From: an uncultured Lutibacter sp.
Lineage (GTDB): Bacteria; Bacteroidota; Bacteroidia; Flavobacteriales; Flavobacteriaceae
Direction: 5' to 3'
Assembly (NCBI RefSeq): GCF_937891065.1
Contig: NZ_CALAEQ010000206.1
Location: 1 to 33,493 of the forward strand
DNA: 33,493 bases
The position numbers and the translations under genes were made by a program. The notes below the pieces were generated by a model that saw nothing but the letters and a program-made list of their open reading frames with translations, was not told the DNA's origin and did not search any database. Position 1 is the stretch's first letter; every line of letters begins with the position of its first letter. This document shows, in pieces, positions 10,154 to 12,734 of the stretch.

Positions 10154-10600
10154 TTGAATAAAAATGATAAAAATGATGAGTTAAATTTACCTGACTTAAC
10201 AATTGCAAATATTTTGCATACAGGTAATTGGATGAATGAAAAGTTTTCAGATCATCTAAAACAATACGCATTATCTATTCAACAATTTCAAGTATTAAGT
10301 TCTTTAAGAGTATTGAAAGGTGAACCTGCAAATCTTTTAACCTTACAAGCCGAAATGGTGAGTAAGAATAGTAATACAACACGTTTGGTTGAAAAACTAA
10401 GATTGAAAGGTTTAATAACAAGAATTCAAAGTGAAGAAAATAGGAGGAAGGTTGAAATCAGAATTACAGATGCTGGTTTAAATTTATTGAATGAGATTGA
10501 AATTTTGCATTCAGATTTTCAAAATGACATTGTAGGTAATTTAACATACAATGAAATTTTAACTCTTAACAAATTATTGGAAAAAATAAGGAATAAATAA
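10154..10600 (+). CDS. MarR family transcriptional regulator
   Basis: Winged-helix pattern LSIQQFQVLSSLRVLKGEPANLLTLQAEMVSKNSNTTRLVEKLRLKGLITRIQSEENRRKVEIRITDAGLNLLNEIE; the listed start is a TTG. Confidence 0.85.
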   Translation: MNKNDKNDELNLPDLTIANILHTGNWMNEKFSDHLKQYALSIQQFQVLSSLRVLKGEPANLLTLQAEMVSKNSNTTRLVEKLRLKGLITRIQSEENRRKVEIRITDAGLNLLNEIEILHSDFQNDIVGNLTYNEILTLNKLLEKIRNK

Positions 10601-10995
10601 GTCAACCCCAAGCACGAGTGATTTATTATGATATAGCGTTTATCACCCCATGAATGCTATATCATAAAAGTCAAAAACAAGTTAGTATTAACAATTAATT
10701 AGTGAAAAGTATGAATAAATAAATCGACCCCAAACAAAATTGGTTTTGTTAAATAATATTAAATACCCAATAATATAATGATGGAAACCAAATTAGATTA
10801 TAAGCATGATTGAAAAGTAAGATCAAATTAATTAGTAAGAATTTGTAAACAATAAATCAGCACTAAGAGGTAGTCTCACTGTAGTCACATACAAAATAAA
10901 GCAGTCCGAAAAATGTTTTAAGATGTTAGATGATTAGTAAGAACTTTGTTTCTGCCTCTTTAATTTAAAGAAAAGAATAATTAAATCAACCCCAA
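10591..10995. repeat. Three direct copies of GAATAAWTAARTCRACCCCAA (10591-10611, 10713-10733, 10975-10995)
   Basis: Read directly: GAATAAATAAGTCAACCCCAA, GAATAAATAAATCGACCCCAA, GAATAATTAAATCAACCCCAA. Confidence 0.8.
10626..10667. repeat. Long hairpin with CACCCC loop downstream of marR
   Basis: TTATGATATAGC-GTTTAT-CACCCC-ATGAAT-GCTATATCATAA: 12 perfect pairs plus 6 more including two G.U. Confidence 0.75.
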
Positions 10996-11170
10996 AAACC
11001 CCAAAAAATTATGATTTCAAAATCATTAATTGTTTCAAAGTTTACTTATATAGTTGCTCCAATCAAAAGTTTTGTGATTAAAAGTAGTACTAGTACAACT
11101 TCTTCTTTGAAATATAATTTTACTTCAGTTTTAACTGATTTTGAAAATTTATTATTCTTTTTAGAAATAA

Positions 11171-11253
11171 AAAAATCAGCCGTAACATATTTATCAATAT
11201 AAAAACCTTTCCCACAACGGTGTATTGTACGATAATAATTGCGGCTGTCTTTT
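11171..11253. repeat. Structured repeat, copy 1
   Basis: Closing stem CAGCCGTAA (11177-11185) / TTGCGGCTG (11239-11247) with central CCCACAACGGTGTA. Confidence 0.65.
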
Positions 11254-11300
11254 TAAACTTATAAACTAGAATTTAACCCCAAATTTCAACCCCACAAACA

Positions 11301-11795
11301 ATGAACCCCTCAAAAATTAACCTACTATTATTCGCTTTCGTTTGCACTGTTATAACTTCTTGCTCTATAGAAGAAAATGGAATTTATTTTGATGAAATAA
11401 ATGAAGTAAAAGAAGGATATTCCATCATGGAATTAGAAATAATGGACTTAGTTAATAATCATAGAGAAGAATTAGGTCTGTTCCCATTAATTAATTTAAA
11501 CATTATATCTTCTGTAGCATTATCACATACAACCTATATGGTTGAAACAAACGTGGTAAACCACAATAATTTTGCAGAGAATCATAAAAACTTAGTTATA
11601 AAAGCTAATGCAAAATCTGTAGGTGAAAATGTAGCTTATGGTTTTGAAACAGCATCTGGAGTTGTAAATGGATGGTTAAATAGTGAAGGACACAAAGCAA
11701 TTTTAGAAAAAAGTAATTATACCCACTTTGGAATTTCAATTGAGCAAAATAGTGAAGGAAGAAATTATTTTACCCAAATATTTATTCAACAATAA
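11301..11795 (+). CDS. CAP (SCP/PR-1-like) domain lipoprotein
   Basis: Lipobox-like VITSC; LVNNHREELGLFPL, ALSHTTYMVE, SVGENVAYG, VVNGWLNSEGHKAILEKSNYTHFGI typical of the CAP superfamily. Confidence 0.88.
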   Translation: MNPSKINLLLFAFVCTVITSCSIEENGIYFDEINEVKEGYSIMELEIMDLVNNHREELGLFPLINLNIISSVALSHTTYMVETNVVNHNNFAENHKNLVIKANAKSVGENVAYGFETASGVVNGWLNSEGHKAILEKSNYTHFGISIEQNSEGRNYFTQIFIQQ

Positions 11796-11955
11796 ATTAT
11801 TAAATTTTAATTATGATTTTATTAGAAAAAATCCCGGCTGAAAAGATAAAAACTAAATTCGAAAGAATTTATATAAATACAATTACTCCATATTTTGAGT
11901 TTAAAAATAAAGATGGAAGAGGCGTATTACCAATAAAACGATGTATTAGATTATA

Positions 11956-11982
11956 AATATTAAGTTGTCCCCACTTAATATT
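11956..11982. repeat. Perfect hairpin with TGTCCCC loop
   Basis: AATATTAAGT-TGTCCCC-ACTTAATATT. Confidence 0.75.
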
Positions 11983-12057
11983 AAAACAGTTGTAAAATCT
12001 TATAATTGTCGTCCCCACAACGGTAGTATAATAAGAGTTTGAATTACAACTGTTTTA
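11982..12057. repeat. Structured repeat, copy 3
   Basis: Perfect 14-bp arms TAAAACAGTTGTAA (11982-11995) / TTACAACTGTTTTA (12044-12057); inner TTGT-CGTCCCC-ACAA hairpin. Confidence 0.75.
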
Positions 12058-12078
12058 TTTTAAATTATTAAGTTTCAT

Positions 12079-12158
12079 AAAAAACAGCCGCAACATACTT
12101 GAAAAAAACTGTCGTCCCCACGATAATTTCTTATTATTCAGTTTATTACGACTGTAAA
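12079..12158. repeat. Structured repeat, copy 2
   Basis: AAAAAACAGCCGCAACATA is a 17/19 match to 11171-11189; inner TCGT-CCCC-ACGA; right arm TTACGACTG (12146-12154). Confidence 0.6.
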
Positions 12159-12329
12159 TCTTTTAACCATATTTAGTAAATAATGTTAAAAGATTAAATA
12201 TTCTTGAACTATTTTTAGGTTTTGTAAATGTAATTTATAACATCTATAATTCCAATTATTTTTTACCTAAATTTAGATGCAGTTTTATACTGCATATTTT
12301 TAATTTGTCTTATTCATTTAATTTTTAAA

Positions 12330-12734
12330 ATGGAAAATTTTAATAGATTTACTTTTACATTAATCGTCACCAATAATGAATTAGATGATTTAAATCATGT
12401 GAATAACATTCATTATATAAAATGGGTACAAGAAGCAGCTCAAAAACATTGGAAAATATTAAGTAACACCAATTTAGACACTAAATATGTATGGGTTGTT
12501 TTAAGACATGAAATAGATTACATAGCATCGGCTATATTACATGATATAATAACTGTAAACACTTGGATTGTAAAATCTTATGGTGTAAAGTCTGAACGTT
12601 TTGTTGAAATAAAAAAAGGTTCAAAAACAATTGCAAAAGCTAAAACTATTTGGTGTTTATTAGATAAAACAACGATGAAACCAGCAAGAATTCCTTCAGA
12701 AATTCTAGAAATTTTAGAGACTAAAAAAGAATAA
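12330..12734 (+). CDS. Acyl-CoA thioesterase (4HBT/hotdog fold)
   Basis: DDLNHVNNIHYIKWVQEAAQKHW hotdog-thioesterase motif; 134 aa. Confidence 0.85.
   Translation: MENFNRFTFTLIVTNNELDDLNHVNNIHYIKWVQEAAQKHWKILSNTNLDTKYVWVVLRHEIDYIASAILHDIITVNTWIVKSYGVKSERFVEIKKGSKTIAKAKTIWCLLDKTTMKPARIPSEILEILETKKE

Follow-up and report, generated by a model that had tools for sequence, protein, structure and literature searches.

The window, a stretch of 33,493 nt of DNA from an uncultured Lutibacter sp., holds three similar blocks of about 80 nt around a gene for a CAP-domain protein, and this raises the question of what kind of element these repeats are. A preliminary description had seen in them structured repeats under selection as folded nucleic acid and had offered an attC-like recombination site, a structured non-coding RNA or a REP/MITE-like element as explanations. 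Among these three options, a structured RNA fits best. We propose, with a probability of about 0.52, that the repeats belong to a Lutibacter structured-RNA family and that the - strand of the window locus (locus A) gives rise to a small RNA (sRNA), which would pair via GGGG loops with CCCC sites in the CAP mRNA.

All three blocks lie where they had been placed, and each forms a hairpin that exceeds chance. Copy 1 (11177-11247, + strand, arms CAGCCGTAA/TTGCGGCTG) lies 5′ of the CAP gene and carries the C-rich loop CTTTCCCACAACGGT; its folding z-score on the + strand is -5.2 and, by energy, it folds well on both strands. Copy 2 (11987-12052, - strand, arms CAGTTGTAA/TTACAACTG), with the core GTTGTGGGGACGAC on the - strand, has a z-score of -4.4 on the + strand and is the candidate last hairpin and terminator of the sRNA, of which copy 3 (12085-12154, - strand, arms CAGCCGCAA/TTACGACTG, GGGG loop TCGTGGGGACGA) is the candidate central hairpin. 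A minimal core hairpin (TTAAGTTGTCCCCACTTAA, 11960-11978), identified from its sequence and given here with no strand, is found between copy 2 and the small ORF (smORF) that follows the CAP gene. Copy 3 folds strongly on the - strand (z -4.9, -25.4 kcal/mol) and only weakly on the + strand (z -1.4, -9.1 kcal/mol), because two C·A mismatches on the + strand become G·U pairs on the - strand. These mismatches had been read as the possible decay of one copy, a view which the G·U pairing overturns; on the - strand, both positions are G-U or A-U in 13/13 relatives of copy 3. In this way, the RNA-carrying strand can be recognised from a C·A 'mismatch' on one of the two strands. Two labels also had to be corrected: the arms attributed to copy 3 in the preliminary description are those of the middle block and the arms attributed to copy 2 are those of the last, and the 11-mer thought to be common to copies 1 and 3 (CCCACAACGGT) in fact occurs in the first block and the middle one. 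On the + strand, the loop of copy 1 is therefore the exact complement of the - strand of copy 2. The loops of copies 2 and 3 read, on the - strand, UUGUGGGG and UCGUGGGG, respectively.

The changes in the arms are compensatory. In alignment A8, 12 cells were changed on both sides, compared to 3.4 in shuffled alignments, and 0/500 shuffles reached 12, but these changes are confined to three pairs, a number of pairs reached by 64/500 shuffles, and the signal is carried by the paralogue classes, not by many independent events. The copies were chosen for near-complementary arms, which inflates the overall pairing rate and leaves open whether G·U or C·A occurs; this outcome was one-sided: the arms of the copy 1 class (26 copies) have eight G-U and no C-A on the + strand (8:0 for +), the copy 3 class has 0 on the + strand and 20 on the - strand (20:0 for -), and the hairpin behind the OmpA gene (locus B) gives 33:0 for the - strand, with the copy 2 class neutral, all of these being counts from related sequences and hence not p-values. 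In the consensus fold of copy 3 on the - strand, an outer stem of 9 bp is followed by a long inner stem with GGGG at its tip. Accordingly, copy 1 is assigned here a fold on the + strand, and both copy 3 and the locus B hairpin are assigned one on the - strand. In summary, compensatory arm changes, strand-specific wobbles and conservation across the genus support the claim of selection on a folded nucleic acid.

A covariance model of the repeats and a search for further copies, both suggested in the preliminary description, could be carried out, and the model was built without the genome of the window (its E-values are rough). It recovered copy 2 (66.1 bits, E 5e-11) and copy 3 (60.2 bits, E 7e-10) on the - strand; copy 1 was a weaker match (31.6 bits, E 4e-4). 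The genome of the window contains a further full copy (C25:3675-3749) and three cores lacking the CAG/CTG arms (C136:153-248), and CCCACAACGG occurs at only two more places in it, on contigs C191 and C268. Across other genomes, the model matched 37/38 of the same genus and 1/161 of the others, this one being from a sister genus. The core TCCCCACAACGGTAGTAT, when allowing up to two mismatches, was found in 36/38 same-genus genomes and, only as two-mismatch matches, in five other genomes, of which the two that were folded are without the arms; the named records that carry the exact core are mostly Lutibacter. A single match in viral contigs lies in an apparently coding stretch and has no arms. 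In Rfam, the window had no match above the gathering score, with only weak, chance-level matches in 10590-12340, and a literature search on Lutibacter repeats or flavobacterial attC arrays found nothing relevant. Judged from sequence, the hairpin family is present in nearly every Lutibacter genome and the window repeats are real members of it. The sole hairpin outside the genus (L191:2114-2180; genome G040, contig C28) lies 5′ of an rfbA-like gene, at a distance of about 800 bases, and neither CAP nor the smORF was seen beside it.

Each genome has about four hairpin copies, and most of them recur at three loci shared between species, which disfavours the REP/MITE-like option. Locus A, that of the window, has the order MarR gene, copy 1, CAP, smORF, copies 2 and 3, thioesterase and glycosyltransferase. 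Locus B has an M3 peptidase gene, CAP and smORF either present or absent, one to three hairpins and then, on the opposite strand, the genes for OmpA and PorP; its hairpin is on the sense strand of OmpA, and in duplicated units the hairpin is retained while the OmpA tail decays. At locus C, two cores lie between gcvP and pdhA, and this tandem two-hairpin layout is again more stable on the - strand. At the end of other CAP-smORF units lie core arrays that lack the CAG/CTG arms.

At locus A, copies 3 and 2 look like an unannotated sRNA of about 235 nt, antisense and 3′ to the CAP lipoprotein gene and the smORF. This candidate (11980-12220, - strand) would comprise a 5′ hairpin (12157-12195), copy 3, copy 2 and a T-tract. 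The - strand of 11980-12217 folds into three hairpins (-56.2 kcal/mol, z -5.5), compared to -40.4 kcal/mol and z -3.1 on the + strand. To the right of copy 3, the promoter-like sequence TTGGAATTATAGATGTTATAAATTACATTTA (12225-12255, - strand; TTG-N20-TANNTTTA) predicts a transcript start near 12220, and the pattern TTG-N20-TANNTTT[GA] is found on the - strand at the same place in 25/25 locus-A relatives, against a background of about 0.03 per 300 nt. Except for its last base, an A and not a G in most sites, the locus-A site fits TAnnTTTG, the -7 box of flavobacterial sigma-A (PMC9723704). The copies at loci B and C yielded no conserved promoter. The copies of class 2 are followed, on average, by 7.8 T in 9 nt on the - strand and by 5.5 on the + strand; copy 2 of the window has a shorter T run than this average.

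We then consider the possible target. The CAP gene (11301-11795, + strand) encodes a protein of 164 aa with a lipoprotein-like N-terminus (PF00188, E 1.5e-14). Its leader contains two CCCC sites (11277-11297, + strand), the second of which, CCCCACAA (11290-11297), lies just before the ATG at 11301 and is an 8-nt complement of the copy 2 loop. CCCC within 30 nt of the start is found in 27/32 CAP leaders, compared to 4/223 control leaders from other ORFs at the same loci, and for this reason GGGG:CCCC pairing is the likeliest mode of action that we infer. In smORF leaders, the count is 6/46. With its four bases, CCCC is a short match. Genome-wide, CCCC before an ATG is at chance level (14 matches, with 14 for the reversed pattern), and no wider regulon is visible. 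The smORF (11813-11956, + strand) encodes 47 aa with the motif YINTLxPxFxYxNxxG, seen in an alignment; it matched no Pfam family, is essentially confined to the genus, and is small, multicopy and fast-changing, and its structure prediction (mean pLDDT 57) is not usable. Some smORF paralogues have no hairpin core nearby (L076:4016-4524 and L159:2318-2459), including two between purE and an M3 peptidase gene and one on contig C7 of the window's genome.

The region upstream of copy 1 has features of its own. A small ORF (11011-11202, + strand; 63 aa, 51-86 aa in relatives) starts after a leader, AAAACCCCAAA, and extends as far as copy 1 or into it; the leader is conserved, unlike the protein. This variable, overlapping ORF reads the copy 1 core in all three frames; the conservation of the core is therefore not coding, and a coding explanation was rejected. 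A second conserved structured element, AGAGGTAGTCTCACTG...CTGCCTCT (10876-10959, + strand), has a stem ending in a T-rich run, no Rfam match and about one copy per Lutibacter genome, beside the MarR gene where the neighbourhood was seen; it is possibly another small RNA or leader. A ATCAACCCCAAA-type motif occurs three times upstream of copy 1 (10602-10995, + strand) and at the same locus in relatives; its hairpins hold CACCCCA in the loop (10626-10667), and the motif is at chance level genome-wide.

The proposed mechanism would operate as follows. A promoter to the right of copy 3 would transcribe the - strand into an sRNA of about 235 nt, with copy 3 followed by copy 2, ending at the T-tract after copy 2, and each hairpin would display a GGGG loop. 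The UUGUGGGG loops would bind the CCCC sites of the CAP mRNA, both beside the start codon and in the copy 1 loop (the exact 11-nt complement), and the pairing would block CAP translation or alter the stability of the mRNA. The same RNA may also come from the hairpin that follows OmpA and from the gcvP-pdhA pair. In this scheme, the genomes directly show the family, its fold and preferred strand, the conservation of the promoter-like sequence and the CCCC in CAP leaders, while transcription, pairing and the effect on CAP and the smORF are what we would expect from these. A broader version, which we regard as rather unlikely, is that one motif in opposite orientations gives both regulator and target, a self-contained RNA circuit controlling multiplying CAP-smORF modules. 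The copies with G-loops (window locus, OmpA 3′-UTR and gcvP-pdhA gap) would form the antisense RNA family, and its matching sites would be the CCCC leaders, the arrays of cores that follow smORFs and the C-rich loop carried by copy 1.

Other explanations have to be weighed against trans-acting pairing. The hairpins could be transcription terminators or stabilisers of mRNA 3′ ends, some of them bidirectional, insulating the CAP module and terminating the OmpA operon, with the invariant core as the site of an RNA-binding protein and no RNA acting in trans. We give this only a minor chance: the edges are A-rich on the left and T-rich on the right on both strands, and the locus B hairpin comes after the OmpA stop codon, as expected from such a role, but the cores in arrays occur without the CAG/CTG arms, an ordinary terminator lies 3′ of the hairpin on C25 anyway, and a plain terminator does not require about 25 near-invariant core bases. 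Moreover, the - strand promoter-like site and the CCCC leaders would be left unexplained.

The small, multicopy, fast-changing smORF directly adjoins the candidate antisense RNA, which would suit a type I-like toxin-antitoxin pair with CAP as a passenger gene. However, the peptide is, by inspection, basic and not a hydrophobic membrane peptide, the CCCC sites precede CAP and not the smORF, and locus B retains hairpins even in the absence of CAP and smORF, making this reading improbable. Least probable of all, and by our estimate very improbable, is a role of the hairpins in moving CAP-smORF cassettes, as sites for recombination or transposition (integron attC-like, MITE/REP). CAP-smORF-repeat units do occur at two loci and in tandem, and attC sites also show strand-specific folding, as well as being imperfect hairpins beside small gene units. 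Against this, the integron integrase TIGR02249 exceeded the cut-off in 0/39 genomes (its matches are split around model positions 180-240), which counts against the attC-like option, and the few copies are mostly at fixed loci, always with the same CAP-smORF genes. In addition, at locus B the covariance model search gave no hairpin match 5′ of CAP; these units are therefore not flanked by copies, and gene cassettes flanked by att sites were dropped as an explanation.

The preferred reading, an sRNA that pairs with the CAP mRNA, places the repeats among multicopy (paralogous) structured sRNA families, a known kind, although as to expression the family is a candidate; related copies across species and a conserved structure on a defined strand were both found. 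In the same phylum, FopS/GibS of Bacteroides thetaiotaomicron are multicopy paralogous sRNAs, with intergenic, antisense and 3′-UTR-derived members, a conserved seed and targets at mRNA starts (PMC11697453). FopS has a single-stranded 5′ seed and a terminator hairpin and targets SusC-type genes, whereas in Lutibacter the nested hairpins would use their GGGG loop as the seed, and the candidate target is the CAP gene; the two were set side by side by description, the sequence comparison being the Rfam scan only. Likewise by description and not by sequence, the family resembles Rfp18 of Flavobacterium psychrophilum, a flavobacterial structured sRNA conserved across its genus, whose stem-loop pairs with mRNAs of secreted proteins (PMC9723704). 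Unlike the candidate Lutibacter sRNA, Rfp18 has been tested in vivo and targets metalloproteases (PMC9723704).

In marine Flavobacteriaceae, control at the post-transcriptional level has received little study. If the proposal is true, Lutibacter would possess a conserved, directly testable sRNA family whose likely target can be named, a secreted protein of the CAP type, together with a new small protein.
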